From an uncultured Thiothrix sp. (GTDB taxonomy: Bacteria; Pseudomonadota; Gammaproteobacteria; Poriferisulfidales; GCA-002705445): 64,000 nucleotides of DNA. The stretch lies in the NCBI GenBank assembly GCA_902595225.1, contig CACJPG010000004.1:21212-85211 (forward strand). Reading direction: 5' to 3'. Made by a program: the position numbers and the translations under genes. Below the pieces are notes generated by a model. It was not told the DNA's origin and made no database searches. It saw only the letters and a list, made by a program, of their open reading frames with translations. The number at the start of each line of letters is the position of its first letter. Position 1 is the first letter of the stretch. This document shows positions 34,652 through 42,855 of the stretch, one piece after another.

Positions 34652-34984
34652 TTAAACGCAACCTGTTGGTTTAGGCAATCCTGCATACTTACAAGCTTGT
34701 TTCGCAGGCCCATATGGAAATAACTCATATAAATATTTACTATTTCCTTTGTCTTTACCTAATTTTTTACCGATTTGTTTCGTAAGAACTCTTACTGCAG
34801 GAGCAATTTGATATTCCTCGTAGTATTCACGAAGAAAATTTATTACTTCCCAATGGTTTTCCTCTAAAGGAGCACCATCGATTTCAGCCATTGCATTTGC
34901 AACGTCAGTATCCCACTCATTCAAGTTTGCTAAATACCCTTCTTCATCGGTTTCGTATGTTTTACCATTTACTTCTAGTCCCAC
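34652..34984 (-). CDS. dsrC: DsrC with both C-terminal cysteines
   Basis: LFPYGPAKQACKYAGLPKPTGCV C-terminus. Confidence 0.96.
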   Translation of the reverse strand: MGLEVNGKTYETDEEGYLANLNEWDTDVANAMAEIDGAPLEENHWEVINFLREYYEEYQIAPAVRVLTKQIGKKLGKDKGNSKYLYELFPYGPAKQACKYAGLPKPTGCV

Positions 34985-35008: not shown

Positions 35009-35317
35009 TTAAAGCCAAGATTGAACAGTTTTATGTTCAGTAGTTAAATCAACGAACTCTTCGTATCCAACTATCTCGACACCCTCTATTACATTATTTA
35101 AAGGTAAGCCTCTGGCCTCTAAGTCAGGCTTCAAGACATACATTTTAAATTCTTTCAACGCATTTTCTATTGTTTCTGAGAATTTCGTAGACTTCATAAC
35201 CGAAATTACTCCATCCTCAATAAATAAAATACTACTATCTTTAGTACATAGTTTTAAGCAAGATGAAGCAGTAGAATTTTCAAATGGTGATTTGTTAATT
35301 GTATGAAGCATATTCAT
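35009..35317 (-). CDS. dsrH: DsrH
   Basis: TusB-like, between dsrF and dsrC. Confidence 0.92.
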   Translation of the reverse strand: MNMLHTINKSPFENSTASSCLKLCTKDSSILFIEDGVISVMKSTKFSETIENALKEFKMYVLKPDLEARGLPLNNVIEGVEIVGYEEFVDLTTEHKTVQSWL

Positions 35318-35330
35318 ATTAATTTTCCTA

Positions 35331-35762
35331 CTAAAAACTCAAAACAACATCTTGTTGATTCATTATTTCTGATAACTCTGCTCTTGAAACTAAATTTATA
35401 GAACTTTTCTCAGCATAATCTTCATCTTCATCTTCCCAAACTAGTTCTTGTAAGTCCGACAAAGATAAACCTCTTTCATCAAGTGACTCTTTATCAATAA
35501 AAATTTTCTTTATTTCATAATCGCCAAGGGCAGAATATGTCGATGAGAAGTTTTTCATTCCAATTCCATCGGTTTGTTGATTTTTCATTAGTTGATAAAC
35601 TCCATCATCAGTAAATGTTAAGCTAACGTCTTGATCAAAAGCTGCTGAAATTAAAACCACCTCAAGTGACTCCAAAGCGTAAATTGTTCCATAAGGACTC
35701 TTCCTATTTACATACATGAATTTCTTTACAATTTGCTCGTCGCTCACGATTTTAATCTCCAA
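35331..35762 (-). CDS. dsrF: DsrF
   Basis: TusC-like (KSPYGTIYALESLEVVLISAAFDQDVSLTF). Confidence 0.92.
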   Translation of the reverse strand: MEIKIVSDEQIVKKFMYVNRKSPYGTIYALESLEVVLISAAFDQDVSLTFTDDGVYQLMKNQQTDGIGMKNFSSTYSALGDYEIKKIFIDKESLDERGLSLSDLQELVWEDEDEDYAEKSSINLVSRAELSEIMNQQDVVLSF

Positions 35763-36144
35763 ATGTAATTAATCTGTCAGCTTGGATTCCTGCTTCTACA
35801 AGTTGGCCTAATCCTGAGATTCTAAAACCATCTTCAATATTGTCAGAATCCTTACCATTTCTCTCTGCCTCACCCTTATCTAAAATTCCTCTTCTCTGAG
35901 CAGCTGCTACACAAACAACAAGATCTATGCCGTGATCTTTTGCTAGAGAAGACCATTCTTTTGTAATGTTTCTATCATCTTGTGGAGGAGTCGCTAGTCT
36001 AGTGGCGTTGTTAACACCATCATTGTAAAAAAATACCCTGTAAATTTCATGGCCTTTTTTTAAAGCTGCTTTAACATATTGAAGTGCTGTATCTGAGGCT
36101 TGGTGCTGATATGGTCCTTCATTTATTAATATTCCTAATTTCAA
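35752..36144 (-). CDS. dsrE: DsrE
   Basis: TusD-like (INEGPYQHQASDTALQ...GIDLVVCVAAAQRRG). Confidence 0.93.
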   Translation of the reverse strand: MKLGILINEGPYQHQASDTALQYVKAALKKGHEIYRVFFYNDGVNNATRLATPPQDDRNITKEWSSLAKDHGIDLVVCVAAAQRRGILDKGEAERNGKDSDNIEDGFRISGLGQLVEAGIQADRLITFGD

Positions 36145-36164: not shown

Positions 36165-37250
36165 TTAAAACCTAATATGAGTTGAGGCATTTAAACTATT
36201 TCTTGCACCTTTCCAATTATTAATATGGAATTTGGTAAATGGAAGCCCTGTAAGCTCGAAAAATCTTGGCCATCCAATTCTCTCAACCCAGTCACTAATT
36301 CTTTCCCAATCTCTAGCATCATCTCTGTATGCTCTTAAGATTTTTTTAACGATCGCTGTAGCTTCTGGCCATCTTGGTGGATTATTTGGAATACCAGCCG
36401 CAACTAATTTTTGGAAGGATGGTTTACCTCTTGCATTTGAGTGATTTCCACCTACCCAGACAGATAATTTTGTATGTTCTGCATCATTAATTTGCATTGG
36501 TGGGCAAGGAGGAAAGCATGCTCCACAACATATACATTTTTTCTCATCAACTTCTAAAGAAGGTTTACCATTAACCTGAGCAGGTCTAATGGCTGCTACA
36601 GGACATCTAGCAACAACTGATGGTCTTTCGCAAACGTTTGAAACTAAGTCATGATTAATCTTAGGTGGTTTTGTATGTTGAACATTAATTGCTATGTCAC
36701 CTTGTCCCCCGCAGTTAATTTGGCAACAAGAAGTTGTCATGTGAACTCTGTTAGGCATATTCCAACCCTTAAATTCATCAATAACTTCATCCATCATAGC
36801 TTTAACTACACCGGATGCATCAGTTCCAGGGATATCGCAATGTAACCAACCTTGAGTATGAGATATCATAGCAACTGAATTTTTAGTTCCACCAACAACG
36901 AAACCATTTTTTTCAAGCTCTACAATCAAAGGTCCAACTTTAGATTCTTGATCAACCATGTATTCAATATTACTTCTAATTGTAAATCGAACATAACCAT
37001 CTGCGAACTTATCACCAATATCACAAAGAATATTTAGAGTTGTAACATCAAGTATCCTTTGTGTTCCAGCTCTTACAGTCCATATTGCGTCACCGCTATG
37101 TGCAACATGTTTTAAAACGCCAGGTCTTGGATCTTCATGATATGCCCATTGCCCATAATTTTTTCTCATTACTGGGTGCATGTATTGAAATGCATCTGGG
37201 CAACCTGATTCAATTGGAGGTCTATTTTCTTGTTGTGCTTGCTCTGCCAT
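36165..37250 (-). CDS. dsrB: dissimilatory sulfite reductase beta subunit (reverse type by context)
   Basis: HTQGWLHCDIPGTDASG, CCQINCGG, CICCGACFPPCP motifs. Confidence 0.95.
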   Translation of the reverse strand: MAEQAQQENRPPIESGCPDAFQYMHPVMRKNYGQWAYHEDPRPGVLKHVAHSGDAIWTVRAGTQRILDVTTLNILCDIGDKFADGYVRFTIRSNIEYMVDQESKVGPLIVELEKNGFVVGGTKNSVAMISHTQGWLHCDIPGTDASGVVKAMMDEVIDEFKGWNMPNRVHMTTSCCQINCGGQGDIAINVQHTKPPKINHDLVSNVCERPSVVARCPVAAIRPAQVNGKPSLEVDEKKCICCGACFPPCPPMQINDAEHTKLSVWVGGNHSNARGKPSFQKLVAAGIPNNPPRWPEATAIVKKILRAYRDDARDWERISDWVERIGWPRFFELTGLPFTKFHINNWKGARNSLNASTHIRF

Positions 37251-37276: not shown

Positions 37277-38533
37277 TTATGCTTTGCCTGCAGATTGAAG
37301 TTTATCCTTAAACCATTTTTCTGCTTCGTCATCCCATCCATCCATTCGAACATATGAACTCGTAGTTGGATCAGCAACCATGTTTGGATCAACATCTACA
37401 CCGATGCCGTCAAGGAAATTTACTAAACCTATTCTTTCGATCATTTCTCCACAACGTTCGTGCTCAAGCCCATTTTCTGCCCAAAAGTCTATTGTTTCCT
37501 CGGCAAGTTCTGTGAGTTTCTCGTAATCCTCTTCTGTTTCTAATTTCATAAAAGGAACGATTACAGTTCCCATCAAGTCCCCAACTTTAAGTGTTCTCTT
37601 TCCGCCCATTAGAATAGTTGCGCCCTTATCATCACCTGGACTTAATGCTTTTGGCATAACATTTAAACAATGCATGCACTTAACACAATTTCTATTGTCA
37701 ACTTCTAAAGTATCATCATCATTCAAAGAGAGGCAATTTGTTGGACATCTAGTAATTACATTATCAATAACGTATTTGCGACCTTTCTTTTCAACAAAAT
37801 CTTTTACTTCCTCTTGGTCAACTTTCATGTCGTCTCTCCATGTACCGATAATTGCGCAATCAGCTCTTTCAATTGAGTTAACGCAATCGTTTGGACATCC
37901 TGAAACTTTAAATTTGAATTTGTATGGAAGGGCGGGTCTATGAACATCATCGGTGAAATTGTTTAATAAAGTCCTATGGATTTTAATTTCATCTATGTTT
38001 GATTGTTCACATCTAGCTGCACCGACACAACACATTCCAGTTCTTACGCATGGTCCTGCTCCACCGAGGTCCCAACCATATTCATTGATTTCATCAAAAA
38101 AGTGTTGGGTATTTTCAGTTGTTGATCCAATAAACATAATATTTCCTGTTTGGCCGTGAAAAGTTTGAAGACCTGATCCATGTTTCTCCCAACTTTCACC
38201 CAACTGTCTTAACATATCTGTTGAGTAGTAGTTTCCTGCAGGCGGCTGAACCCTTAATGTATGAAACTCTTTAGATTCTGGGAATGCATCACCCACTTCT
38301 GAAAATCGTGGAATTATTCCACTACCGTAACCAAATACACTTACTGTACCACCTTTCCAATAGCCCTTTCGTGTCTCGTAGGAATGTTCTAATTGTCCTA
38401 ATAAAGAATTGGCCATCCCAGAAATTCTTTCACTTGGATGTTGGTCACGTAATCTTTTAAAACCAGAAATAAAACTTGGCCATGGGCCGTGCTCAAGCTC
38501 GTCTAACATCGGGGTTTTATGTTTATCTGCCAC
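37277..38533 (-). CDS. dsrA: dissimilatory sulfite reductase alpha subunit (reverse type by context)
   Basis: GPCVRTGMCCVGAARCE, VSGCPNDC, CVKCMHCLNVMP motifs. Confidence 0.95.
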   Translation of the reverse strand: MADKHKTPMLDELEHGPWPSFISGFKRLRDQHPSERISGMANSLLGQLEHSYETRKGYWKGGTVSVFGYGSGIIPRFSEVGDAFPESKEFHTLRVQPPAGNYYSTDMLRQLGESWEKHGSGLQTFHGQTGNIMFIGSTTENTQHFFDEINEYGWDLGGAGPCVRTGMCCVGAARCEQSNIDEIKIHRTLLNNFTDDVHRPALPYKFKFKVSGCPNDCVNSIERADCAIIGTWRDDMKVDQEEVKDFVEKKGRKYVIDNVITRCPTNCLSLNDDDTLEVDNRNCVKCMHCLNVMPKALSPGDDKGATILMGGKRTLKVGDLMGTVIVPFMKLETEEDYEKLTELAEETIDFWAENGLEHERCGEMIERIGLVNFLDGIGVDVDPNMVADPTTSSYVRMDGWDDEAEKWFKDKLQSAGKA

Positions 38534-38757
38534 TCTATTCTCCTTTATTAAATATTATATTTATCTACAGATAATTTTATTTTATGAGTTATTTTCCACT
38601 ATTTACATTGTCCCTTTGGGGTGTCATATATATCTCTAATGACGCATATTTTATATCTATAATGGGATATGTTTTAAAACACTCGATTTTTCTGTTTCAC
38701 TAAATATATAATCTATTATGCTATCAAATTTTATATATATTACCACATGATCAAAAC

Positions 38758-39621
38758 ATGAATTCCCCTTTTTTATTGGAAAATCAAGCTGAGTATGAAG
38801 CATGGAAAAAAATAAAGCTATCTTCGTACCCAAAAAGTCTCTCAGATCTTTGTGTAAAAATAGATCAAAATAATTTTGGTCAAAATCAAATTAATGATTT
38901 AAAGAAAATTCTTAGCAAGTACAATTTTGTTTTGTATAAATTCGACTCAAAAATAAATGATCTTGTTCTTCAACAATTTTGCAAAAAACTTAATCTTGTC
39001 GAATCAATTTCAAATCCTTTATCAGATATGAATAATATTTCTAATATTACTGATAATTCAAATAAAACTCGTGAAAAAATCAAAGGAGAATATATCCCAT
39101 ATACAAATAAAAAACTAAATTGGCATACAGATGGTTATTATTACCCCACAAATTTTTCTGTTAAATCCTTTTTATTACATTGCGAGAATCAAGCAGAAAG
39201 CGGAGGAAAAAATCATTTAATTGATCATGAAATAATTTATATTTTTTTACGAGACCATAATCCAGAATTTATTGATATCCTAATGCAAAAAGATATTATG
39301 GAAATTCCTAAAAATAAAAATATTAGTTCAAGTAAATCGATTAAAGGTCCTGTTTTCTATATTGATAAAGAGAATTATTTAAATATGAGATATACGTCTA
39401 GGAAACAAAACATTGTTTGGAAAAAAGATGATATGATAAAAAAAATAAAAATATTTTTAGATAACTTCCTAAATGATAATGAAGAATATATTTTTAGTTT
39501 ATTACTCGAGAATAACCAAGGATATCTAGCGAACAACGTCCTTCATCGTAGAGAAGAATACGTAGATGGAGAGAAAAAAAGACTTTTAAAAAGAATACGT
39601 TTTTTAAATAGGATAAATTAA
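38758..39621 (+). CDS. TauD/TfdA-family Fe(II)/2OG dioxygenase
   Basis: LNWHTDGYYYP HxD motif; distal LANNVLHRREEY. Confidence 0.78.
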   Translation: MNSPFLLENQAEYEAWKKIKLSSYPKSLSDLCVKIDQNNFGQNQINDLKKILSKYNFVLYKFDSKINDLVLQQFCKKLNLVESISNPLSDMNNISNITDNSNKTREKIKGEYIPYTNKKLNWHTDGYYYPTNFSVKSFLLHCENQAESGGKNHLIDHEIIYIFLRDHNPEFIDILMQKDIMEIPKNKNISSSKSIKGPVFYIDKENYLNMRYTSRKQNIVWKKDDMIKKIKIFLDNFLNDNEEYIFSLLLENNQGYLANNVLHRREEYVDGEKKRLLKRIRFLNRIN

Positions 39622-39622
39622 A

Positions 39623-39814
39623 ATGCTTACACTCAGCGAAATTTTAATAAAAGAATATAAGATGAAGTCTTATAAAGAGTTAAAAGAATTTATTATAAAA
39701 AAGATAGATGAAGGTGAAATGTTTTTATCTATTGATATAAAACCAAGCTTTGATGATACGCCAGATTACTGGGAAACCGATTTAGAAAATTTATTCACTT
39801 CACCTAGAAAATAA
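39623..39814 (+). CDS. small acidic protein, unknown
   Basis: 63-aa ORF tightly packed between neighbours. Confidence 0.5.
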   Translation: MLTLSEILIKEYKMKSYKELKEFIIKKIDEGEMFLSIDIKPSFDDTPDYWETDLENLFTSPRK

Positions 39815-39818
39815 ACCT

Positions 39819-40499
39819 ATGTACTGGGAAGACGATGACCAAGATAGACAAAAGAAATCTAGCGAAAGTATTGTTGATGTTTCTTTTAAAGTGAATTGTA
39901 AAAAGATTGCAGCAGATCACGCTTACGACTTGTTTCTTGCCGTCTTAAAAAAATTTCCACATATTGAAAAAATTAATAATTTGGCAATTCACTCAGTTTA
40001 TGGCGCAGAATCTGGTGCAGGCTGGGAAAGACCTGAAACAGAAATATATCTCTCAAAAAGAACGAGATTTTGTATTCGAACACCTATAGAACATTCTCAA
40101 GATTTTCATAATTTAAACGGAGAAACACTTGAAATCGGAGCCTATAAAATGACACTATCTAAACCTACAATTAAAGAATTAGTTATTACAGATACTCTAT
40201 TTTGCAGGACTGTTGTGGTCGACAATAATCAAAATGAAGAGGAATTTTTAAAAGATGTAAGTTTGTCTCTAGCAACAATGGGAATTAATGTTAAAAAGAT
40301 GCTTTGTGGTAAAGAACATATTGTGCAAACTCCTAGCAAGACTCTTGTGGGAAAAACCTTATTAATAACTGACCTTGAAAAACAAGATTCTATAAAATTG
40401 CAAGAGCTCGGAATAGGTATTGGAAAATTATTTGGATGTGGTATCTTTTTACCTCATAAAAGTATAGCTCCTGTAGCTGTCTCGAAGAGTAATGAATAA
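39819..40499 (+). CDS. Cas6/Cmx6-like (type I-MYXAN) RAMP-fold protein
   Basis: ADHAYDLFLAVLKKFPH, LSKRTRFCIRTP, LNGETLEIGAYKMTLSKP, FLKDVSLSLATMGI, C-term glycine-rich LQELGIGIGKLFGCGIFLPHK typical of Cmx6. Confidence 0.72.
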   Translation: MYWEDDDQDRQKKSSESIVDVSFKVNCKKIAADHAYDLFLAVLKKFPHIEKINNLAIHSVYGAESGAGWERPETEIYLSKRTRFCIRTPIEHSQDFHNLNGETLEIGAYKMTLSKPTIKELVITDTLFCRTVVVDNNQNEEEFLKDVSLSLATMGINVKKMLCGKEHIVQTPSKTLVGKTLLITDLEKQDSIKLQELGIGIGKLFGCGIFLPHKSIAPVAVSKSNE

Positions 40500-40522
40500 T
40501 ATGATTTGTCAGGGAGGTTAAA

Positions 40523-40864
40523 ATGCCAACAATCGAAATAGCAGGAAAACAAATAGAAACCACTGAGATGGGTTACTTGATTAATGCCGAGGACTGGTCT
40601 GAAGATTTGGCTAAAGCAATAGCCGCCTCAGAGAAATTAGAGTTAACCGATAGGCATTGGGATGTAATAAATCATCTAAGAGATGAATTTTTTAATAATG
40701 CTGGTAATCAGCCTAATACAAGAAAATTGGTAAAACATTTTGAGAAGTTGTGGGGTGAAAAAATTGATGCAAAAGTACTCTACGACCTTTTCCCAGGAGA
40801 TCCAAGCAAACAAGGTGGAAGAATATCTGGGCTTCCTGAAAGTAGAAGAAAAGGTGGGTACTAA
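40523..40864 (+). CDS. DsrC/TusE-family paralogue with no cysteines (RspA-like)
   Basis: DsrC-like throughout (GYLINAEDWSEDLAKAIA...WDVINHLRDEF) but C-terminus LFPGDPSKQGGRISGLPESRRKGGY. Confidence 0.88.
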   Translation: MPTIEIAGKQIETTEMGYLINAEDWSEDLAKAIAASEKLELTDRHWDVINHLRDEFFNNAGNQPNTRKLVKHFEKLWGEKIDAKVLYDLFPGDPSKQGGRISGLPESRRKGGY

Positions 40865-40947: not shown

Positions 40948-41154
40948 ATGAGTGAAGATAAACAAGAAAAAATTAAGAAGCTTCTTGCTATGCAGAAGAA
41001 ATTTATAGCGCTCGACCGAGAACAAGGTGTCGAAGCTTCAGAGTATTTTTCTCCAGATGATGATTCAGAAATTGCCGGTTTCAGGGAAGAATATCGCGAC
41101 TTAGCAATGGAAATTGTAGACCTCGCCCACAAAGATAAAGGCTCCCAAAAGTAA
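40948..41154 (+). CDS. small charged protein, unknown
   Basis: 68-aa ORF with GGTGG-like RBS, collinear with the cluster. Confidence 0.55.
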   Translation: MSEDKQEKIKKLLAMQKKFIALDREQGVEASEYFSPDDDSEIAGFREEYRDLAMEIVDLAHKDKGSQK

Positions 41155-41158
41155 AAAA

Positions 41159-41479
41159 ATGTATGAACTTACTATCATTCTCGGCGAGAATGAATACCCT
41201 TTAAAAATCAAAGAAGCGATAGTTAGCGAGGCTGGCCCTTTTTTTGAAAAAATGGACTCTGATATGAGTAAAGGCTGGCAGATGAGTAAAAGCTGGGTTG
41301 AAAATCCAAATCAGTTTCAGAAATGCCAAATCGTTGCAGATCGTTTATTTACTTCAATACATCTTAATAAGAAAAAGACCGCCATAATGATGGCAGCCTA
41401 TATCATTAATCAAATGCCAAGTGTAAAAGTTATTGATATTGATATTTCTGGAAATATGGAAGAAACCACATTTTCTTGA
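41159..41479 (+). CDS. hypothetical protein
   Basis: 106-aa ORF 5 nt after the previous one. Confidence 0.6.
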   Translation: MYELTIILGENEYPLKIKEAIVSEAGPFFEKMDSDMSKGWQMSKSWVENPNQFQKCQIVADRLFTSIHLNKKKTAIMMAAYIINQMPSVKVIDIDISGNMEETTFS

Positions 41480-41480
41480 T

Positions 41481-42053
41481 TTAAGCAAAAACCACCCAAG
41501 TTGTGGCAATATATTTTTTACCTGATAACACCTCAGTTCCCCGATGTTTGTGTGTCCAAAAAGGTGGGAAAAGAATTAATTTTCCTGCTGATGGGCTAAC
41601 GCTTAAATTTTGATGATAAAATTCTGTTTCCCCGCCTTGATTTTTGCCCATATCATTTAAATAGAAGATTGCGACTAACTGCCTATAGCTAAATTCATGA
41701 CTACCGCCATCAATATGCCAATGGTAAAACTGTCCAGGTTCAGTTCTCTGAATTGCATAACCCATGTCTTTGAATGGACCTTGGAAAAAATCGATTTCCT
41801 TTTTTAATTTCGCTAATGATTTTGCCAAGACTGTAAAAAATAATTTATCGACTTCTTTCCAACCTTCTTTTCCACTTATAAATAAATCTGTTGATTTTTT
41901 AATATTTAAATCTTCTTCTAAATTTTGGCCAATCTTACCCTGATAATGCTCATCTTTATTTTTTTCAAAGAGATCAATAATTGTCTTGCAATCTTGCTGA
42001 CTTATTGCATTTTCAAATTCGAATATAAAAGTATTTGGCTTTATCTCTTTCAT
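41481..42053 (-). CDS. 2OG-Fe(II) oxygenase (prolyl-4-hydroxylase type)
   Basis: YHWHIDGG HxD, distal PPFWTHKHRGTEVLSGKKY; ORF-track start 42212 rejected in favour of MKEIKP at 42053. Confidence 0.82.
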   Translation of the reverse strand: MKEIKPNTFIFEFENAISQQDCKTIIDLFEKNKDEHYQGKIGQNLEEDLNIKKSTDLFISGKEGWKEVDKLFFTVLAKSLAKLKKEIDFFQGPFKDMGYAIQRTEPGQFYHWHIDGGSHEFSYRQLVAIFYLNDMGKNQGGETEFYHQNLSVSPSAGKLILFPPFWTHKHRGTEVLSGKKYIATTWVVFA

Positions 42054-42100
42054 TTGTAATGATATATATATGTAATTATTAATTTTTATAAGGTAATAAT

Positions 42101-42655
42101 TTGAGTATACAAAGAATACATAGTGGTTGGAATCAAAAAGGAAAAAAAAGGCAAATAAGTCAAGTTGCAAGTGCTCTGGCTGTAAGCATATGGAAAATAT
42201 CAAAAAAAACACTTTTAAATTTAGAGAATGAGGGTTTTGATACTGACACTTGGACGGATAGATTAGAAATACTAAGAGAAATTTCTTGTTTTCAAGTTTA
42301 CGTTACAATGAATGAAATAACTGGTTTTGATGACGAGAAAAGAATTGACTTCATTACTGATATCGCAAAGAAACTCAATGAAACTATCAATATAAACCAA
42401 GTTGATTTGAAGATTCCCGAGGGAAATATAAAAAAGAAATTTATTAATCTTTTAAATGATCGATTGGAGGATTATAGCGCACTTGAATATATCGATGAGC
42501 CAAGTTACAAAGCAAGCATAATGCTTGGAAATCACTTAATGCAGCATATGGGCGAGCTTGATAATAATTGGATAAGAATGTACGTGATCGACCAAGAAGT
42601 TCCTAAAATACTTTTGTCGCTCAGAAAGCCAATAAAATCTTTAGTGAATAGATAA
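42101..42655 (+). CDS. hypothetical protein
   Basis: 184-aa ORF, TTG start, divergent from the oxygenase. Confidence 0.6.
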   Translation: MSIQRIHSGWNQKGKKRQISQVASALAVSIWKISKKTLLNLENEGFDTDTWTDRLEILREISCFQVYVTMNEITGFDDEKRIDFITDIAKKLNETININQVDLKIPEGNIKKKFINLLNDRLEDYSALEYIDEPSYKASIMLGNHLMQHMGELDNNWIRMYVIDQEVPKILLSLRKPIKSLVNR

Positions 42656-42657
42656 AA

Positions 42658-42855
42658 CTACTTTTTTTTCCAATTGCCAATATTACTCAGGTTTTTTTCT
42701 TGGCCATCTTCGTATCCAGCATCATAGGCTTCTGTTGTTCGTTGCTCTTCCCTAGGTGGATGGCCTAAGAAGCCCCCTTGCCAACCAAGAATATACTCAT
42801 CTTGAACATCTTGTTCTTCCATTTGTACTATGGCATTTCTATAAGTTTCATTCAT
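42658..42855 (-). CDS. small protein with G/Y-rich Rmf-like repeats (YILGWQGGFLG / AYDAGYEDG)
   Basis: 65-aa ORF; repeat-like motif only. Confidence 0.5.
   Translation of the reverse strand: MNETYRNAIVQMEEQDVQDEYILGWQGGFLGHPPREEQRTTEAYDAGYEDGQEKNLSNIGNWKKK

Follow-up and report, generated by a model that had tools for sequence, protein, structure and literature searches.

What does a protein of a CRISPR-associated family do beside the genes of a reverse-Dsr cluster, at a locus without any CRISPR system in view? This question is raised by a 226-amino-acid protein encoded at positions 39819–40499 on the forward strand of the window, i.e., the whole 64,000-nucleotide stretch of gammaproteobacterial DNA analysed here. 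The protein displayed a full-length profile match to TIGR02807 (123.9 bits, curated cut-off 98.85) and also matched PF09559 (190.3 bits, cut-off 26.7), and both profiles were matched by all 61 aligned members of the family. Its C-terminal glycine-rich loop reads GIGIGKLFGCGIF, and in the family alignment G198, G206, and G208 of this loop are invariant, while G200 is nearly so. An AlphaFold2 model based on an alignment of 61 homologues from the fetched loci (mean pLDDT 90.8, pTM 0.85) was most similar in Foldseek to type I-B CAST Cas6 (8fcu_B, E 5.7e-16, TM 0.78/0.83); the next matches included P. furiosus Cas6 and T. thermophilus Cse3. Type I-B CAST Cas6 was likewise the sole significant PDB relative by sequence (8fcj_B, E 2.9e-12 with the single protein and 5.5e-27 with the family profile). 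With profile, double ferredoxin fold, and glycine-rich loop all in agreement, the protein is a member of the Cas6 superfamily of RAMP proteins, and the original prediction of a 226-aa Cas6/Cmx6-type protein, to be checked by its fold, was borne out on both counts.

Across genomes, this family is distributed with dsrA. Within the order to which the window belongs, PF09559 was detected in 19 of 20 genomes, and in an even draw of 369 Gammaproteobacteria, Cas6 was found in 118 genomes (one match per genome, except for one frame-split case) and dsrA in 119, counting fragments at E < 1e-30. Both genes were present in 111 genomes, Cas6 only in 7, dsrA only in 8, and neither in 243 (Fisher p 7e-75, uncorrected for phylogeny). 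This linkage, with 111 of the 118 Cas6 carriers also encoding dsrA, is far beyond chance and upholds the originally proposed connection to sulfur oxidation, as does the position of the Cas6 module divergent from dsrAB (see below). For the exceptions, true gene loss was rejected in all seven Cas6-only genomes, whose contigs stop upstream of Cas6, before or inside dsrA, and in seven of the eight dsrA-only genomes, whose contigs stop in dsrA or shortly upstream. For instance, the contig of the dsrA-only genome G141 stops right after two genes of the module, TauD and c63, at the expected Cas6 position; the remaining dsrA-only genome, G228, is an ambiguous case. Of 398 genomes drawn across the phylum, 5 carried Cas6 and 53 dsrA: the five dsrA-positive Gammaproteobacteria all carried Cas6, and the 48 dsrA-positive genomes from other classes all lacked it. 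Dsr can thus function without Cas6, and the restriction of Cas6 to gammaproteobacterial dsrA-positive genomes identifies it as a gammaproteobacterial addition to Dsr rather than a chemical necessity of DsrAB. Several of the 48 genomes from other classes encoded two dsrA-like matches and no PF09559 protein.

We then considered whether these proteins could be ordinary crRNA-processing Cas6 serving a remote array in trans, or remnants of a lost type I-MYXAN system. The score of the window protein above the curated cut-off of TIGR02807, a CRISPR family, is in line with such an origin, and Cas1 is present in 37 of 80 Cas6-positive genomes. However, Cas1 is absent from the other 43, nine of which are single-contig (G038, G053, G062, G098, G100, G127, G150, G327, and G612), as well as from the window's own genome (84% complete, profile search), where Cas3 also remained below the cut-off. 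A repeat scan of the window and of every fetched dsr locus, which detected the arrays of CRISPR plasmids used as a positive control, found no CRISPR-like array, and no cas genes were observed among the neighbours of dsr-linked Cas6 loci, so that the original claim of a window devoid of arrays and other cas genes holds and the cas operon or array that accompanies CRISPR Cas6/Cmx6 is missing here. Furthermore, the gene is fixed as a single copy next to dsrAB across many families, it forms a clade of its own with its own conserved residues, and a leftover of a lost system would not remain conserved. Both the trans-acting and the remnant readings are therefore very improbable, and already largely refuted. 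We conclude with high confidence that this is a CRISPR-independent Cas6 dedicated to dsr genomes.

The separation from CRISPR Cas6 was also apparent in the phylogeny, in which a single branch divided 63 dsr-linked Cas6 from CRISPR and CAST Cas6 (support 100/99, with a program warning that bootstraps were not fully settled and with some long rows in the tree). The CRISPR side comprised CAST Cas6 and seven cyanobacterial plasmid proteins annotated as type I-MYXAN Cas6/Cmx6, six of which are encoded inside cas operons. These seven were the only plasmid matches in our searches for dsr-type copies, and none were found in the viral contigs and phages searched. The deepest branch on the CRISPR side was a Cas6/Cmx6 homologue of Gloeobacter morelensis plasmid pGMOR1 (L143, 5768–10841), which has no cas neighbours and lies near a gene of the phosphoadenosine-phosphosulfate-reductase family.

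The two groups differ in residues as well. Alongside the full-length profile match and the fold, dsr-linked Cas6 share with type I-MYXAN Cas6/Cmx6 and type I-B CAST Cas6 (PDB 8fcj, 8fcu) the glycine-rich loop with C207, H34, R87, and, except for four deep dsr branches, R130. In contrast, the LHE/LHD histidine found after helix 1 in six of the seven CRISPR sequences is present in none of the 63 dsr-linked ones (E50 takes its place in the window protein), and the lysine at loop position 202 of the CRISPR group is lost. Conversely, the dsr group is set apart by an N-terminal MxWxE motif, a GNGWxRP insertion, H58, and a C-terminal HK. The window protein carries H34, H58, R81, R87, and a GAGW version of the insertion at 66–69, where most relatives have GNGWxRP. 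In the main dsr clade, W3, G68, W69, and R81 were each conserved in 59/59 sequences and H58 in 57/59, together with E140, K160, and HK at 213–214. H34, located in the first helix and common to six of the seven CRISPR relatives, is nearly invariant in this clade, and H34 and H58 are partly lost in the deep-branching members, of which L124 lacks both.

The genomic setting of Cas6 is equally distinctive. On the reverse strand of the window, dsrA (37277–38533; TIGR02064, 610.5 bits) is followed by dsrB (36165–37250, identified by a homology cluster adjoining dsrA), by dsrE (35752–36144), dsrF (35331–35762), and dsrH (35009–35317), which together span 35009–36144 and were assigned through DsrE-family Pfam matches for the first two and a homology cluster for dsrH, and by a canonical dsrC (34652–34984) recognized by homology and by both of its arm cysteines. 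Divergently, on the forward strand, a module starts with a TauD/gamma-butyrobetaine-dioxygenase-like 2-oxoglutarate oxygenase (38758–39621; profile matches and neighbourhoods), followed by c63, a conserved 63-aa protein whose gene immediately precedes Cas6 and whose fold is unknown (39623–39814; neighbourhoods and genome survey), for which a PDB search returned nothing significant, by Cas6, and by a DsrC paralogue designated DsrC2 (40523–40864), whose reading frame begins 23 nt past the Cas6 stop codon. On the same strand lie a68 (40948–41154; 68 aa), present downstream of DsrC2 in about half of the loci, and b106 (41159–41479; 106 aa), frequent in the wider neighbourhood; both are proteins of unknown function without a match in Pfam or NCBIfam. 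The wider module also includes d190 (42101–42655, forward strand), an all-helical protein of unknown family with a confident structure model and homologues in about 30 loci, including the deep-branching L122–L124, and with no relative in Pfam, NCBIfam, or PDB.

A survey of 72 Cas6 loci from many families revealed the same layout recurring, with dsrAB(EFHC) on one strand and, divergently, TauD, c63, sometimes k16 (an extra 235-aa protein), Cas6, DsrC2, and often a68. In 51 of the 60 loci that had dsrA in view or 4 kb or more of upstream sequence, dsrA lay upstream on the opposite strand, and DsrC2 was detected in 59 of the 72 loci, mostly 20–350 nt downstream of Cas6 and on the same strand. Cas6 also adjoins dsrAB in four genomes from the phylum draw that form the deepest branches on the dsr side of the tree, three of which clearly display the order Cas6-DsrC2-d190-TauD (in the fourth, L121, the genes in between were masked by an overlapping ORF call). 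Where Cas6 is detached from the dsr cluster, as in order-mates G014–G019, it is usually still accompanied by c63 and TauD, while DsrC2 (77–79% identical) remains within a few kb of dsrC or, in G016, of dsrA; in G060, c63 is what remains on the dsrA contig, and some Cas6-positive genomes have no DsrC2. c63 was found in 31/40 Cas6-positive and 0/40 Cas6-negative genomes. The predicted linkage between Cas6 and DsrC is therefore conserved, but DsrC2 is not the tightest partner: since TauD, c63, and Cas6 usually travel together and DsrC2 stays at dsrAB, a Cas6-DsrC pair understates the unit, and a module that diverges from dsrAB and comprises TauD, c63, Cas6, and DsrC2 describes it better. Compared to the reverse-Dsr cluster of sulfur-oxidising bacteria (dsrABEFHCMKLJOPNRS), for which the open-access accounts searched do not mention a Cas6 homologue, this module is a divergent block upstream of dsrA in many gammaproteobacterial families. 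Overall, none of the three results named beforehand as contrary to the original prediction, i.e., no Cas6 match, a type I-MYXAN cas system using this Cas6, or no conserved linkage to DsrC, was found.

DsrC2 itself is a full-length member of the DsrC/TusE family (113 aa; PF04358, 110.7 bits; TIGR03342, 98.9 bits) and, as originally noted, is free of cysteine. Its C-terminal arm reads GGRISGLPESRRKGGY, compared to ACKYAGLPKPTGCV in the canonical DsrC of the window, and ends in a KGGY tail (window 40850–40861) that is invariant in 59/59 DsrC2 sequences, whereas canonical DsrC ends in GC[VI]. The upstream arm cysteine is also replaced, except in L123. With the arm cysteines replaced, DsrC2 cannot perform the two-cysteine chemistry of DsrC, and the fixed KGGY tail suggests a docking or modification site. 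Cys-less DsrC homologues have been proposed to be regulatory proteins, named RspA, and the window DsrC2, a DsrC-family protein without both conserved cysteines, falls within that description, although the invariant KGGY and the coupling to Cas6 and c63 distinguish it within the DsrC/TusE family. An extra DsrC-like gene near a dsr cluster is listed in PMC5944118.

Given its nearly exact co-occurrence with dsr, its usual adjacency to dsrAB, and the frequent absence of CRISPR, Cas6 was probably recruited for an RNA-related job in sulfur metabolism. The reading we favour, to which we give about an even chance, is that of an exapted Cas6 belonging to the gammaproteobacterial reverse-Dsr gene set, which binds, and perhaps cuts, a cellular RNA in the control of sulfur oxidation. 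Cas6 would use its glycine-rich loop and its pair of ferredoxin folds to bind a structured cellular RNA, this binding or a putative cleavage would tune the production of the Dsr machinery, and DsrC2, without redox cysteines, would serve as a sensor or adaptor coupling Cas6 to the sulfur-loading state. Support decreases along this chain, from an exapted Cas6 binding cellular RNA to the control of dsr expression and then to DsrC2 as a sensor or adaptor. Accordingly graded, action on some cellular RNA is reasonably probable, while action on dsr mRNA together with DsrC2 is doubtful, with dsr mRNA a first guess at the substrate and the contribution of DsrC2 conjectural. A fuller version, in which a remodelled Cas6 reads a cellular hairpin, the KGGY tail of DsrC2 reads the sulfur state, and c63 and TauD are further parts of an RNA-level control of the gammaproteobacterial reverse-Dsr system, is tentative.

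Other readings would keep the locus and change the activity. tRNA is thiolated by Tus proteins, and a short stem-loop is what Cas6 proteins recognise in an RNA; Cas6 and DsrC2 might hence target tRNA hairpins, binding or cutting them according to the sulfur flux, in line with the homology of the DsrEFH/DsrC relay to the TusBCD/TusE tRNA-thiolation relay and of DsrC2 to TusE; however, DsrC2 lacks the cysteine used by TusE and the linkage tracks dsrA, not a tRNA gene, which makes a tRNA substrate improbable. It is also quite unlikely that Cas6 is no longer RNA-related and instead serves as a scaffold on which c63, TauD, or Dsr proteins assemble: the tight gene packing with c63 and TauD and the subfamily motifs W3 and GNGWxRP, absent from CRISPR Cas6, could be expected of a scaffold, but conservation extends to basic residues and to the glycine-rich loop that binds RNA in Cas6.

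Closer to the favoured reading is a Cas6 that has lost catalysis and acts through RNA binding alone, as a translational repressor, an mRNA stabiliser, or an RNA-dependent sensor. Without the LHE/LHD histidine of CRISPR Cmx6, dsr-linked Cas6 may not cut, and the disappearance of this residue from all 63 sequences, the loss of loop lysine 202 next to a retained glycine-rich loop, and the further lack of H34 and H58 in L124 are all consistent with binding only. On the other hand, nearly all sequences of the main clade keep H34 and H58, and the catalytic residues differ among Cas6 groups according to the discussion section of PMC3150331. We consider this alternative possible, although on the unlikely side. 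For the domesticated RAMP RNase originally proposed, the Cas6 homology, fold, and CRISPR independence stand, while the RNase label assumes a catalysis that the missing histidine calls into question.

A search for an RNA target found none. The promoter region from which dsrA and the module diverge (38534–38757, on neither strand in particular) contains TGGGGTG (38617–38623) and GGGATA (38664–38669), which are parts of a conserved operator-like element with rigid spacing that emerged from k-mer enrichment. On the module strand, this element consists of AAGTCTAG, 39 nt on the palindrome ACCCTACCNATGGGGTG, and 24 nt on CTATCCC-N4-GGGATAT, and its two palindromes were found upstream of dsrA in about 40/50 loci. 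This arrangement resembles a conserved dsr promoter that has two predicted regulator sites, and because of this resemblance to a DNA operator and promoter, the palindromic element was rejected as a Cas6 hairpin. Compared with shuffled sequence, the folding of the dsrA leaders gave only a weak signal (mean z −0.83), no convincing compensatory pairs were observed in the dsrA/TauD region in a genus-level alignment, and an Rfam search of the window returned no match. The binding of DsrC to DNA upstream of a dsr cluster is cited in PMC5944118. According to work cited in PMC3397948, dsrEFH and dsrC transcripts are more abundant than those of dsrA in A. vinosum, a difference that would be compatible with mRNA-level control; both observations fit a regulated locus, and neither proves a role for Cas6.

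No paper on a link between Cas6 and dsr was found in the open literature searched. The association is strong, broad, and, as far as that literature shows, undescribed. The dsr-linked protein itself belongs to a known superfamily, within which it forms a divergent clade. As a system, it amounts to a Cas6 relative that has become fixed among metabolic genes and lacks two defining features of CRISPR Cas6, the cas operon or array and the LHE/LHD histidine. If the favoured reading is correct, a CRISPR-type RNA enzyme would have become a stable part of the core energy-metabolism genes throughout a bacterial class, which would point to a so far unsuspected role of RNA as a further layer in how microbes oxidise sulfur. 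NCBIfam, Pfam, and PADLOC models call the dsr-linked proteins CRISPR-associated Cas6, so that defence-system surveys can miscount them. As four linked genes, TauD, c63, Cas6, and DsrC2 also provide a starting point from which the function of Cys-less DsrC homologues can be tested. Around this module, 2-oxoglutarate oxygenases other than the TauD-family gene recur (PF13640, one of PKHD/YbiX type; window 41481–42212, reverse strand, and L105:4124–4801), and a reverse-strand gene at 42658–42855, frequent near other loci as well, matches the NCBIfam "Alvin_2107 family globule sulfur oxidation protein" (93.8 bits, cut-off 60).
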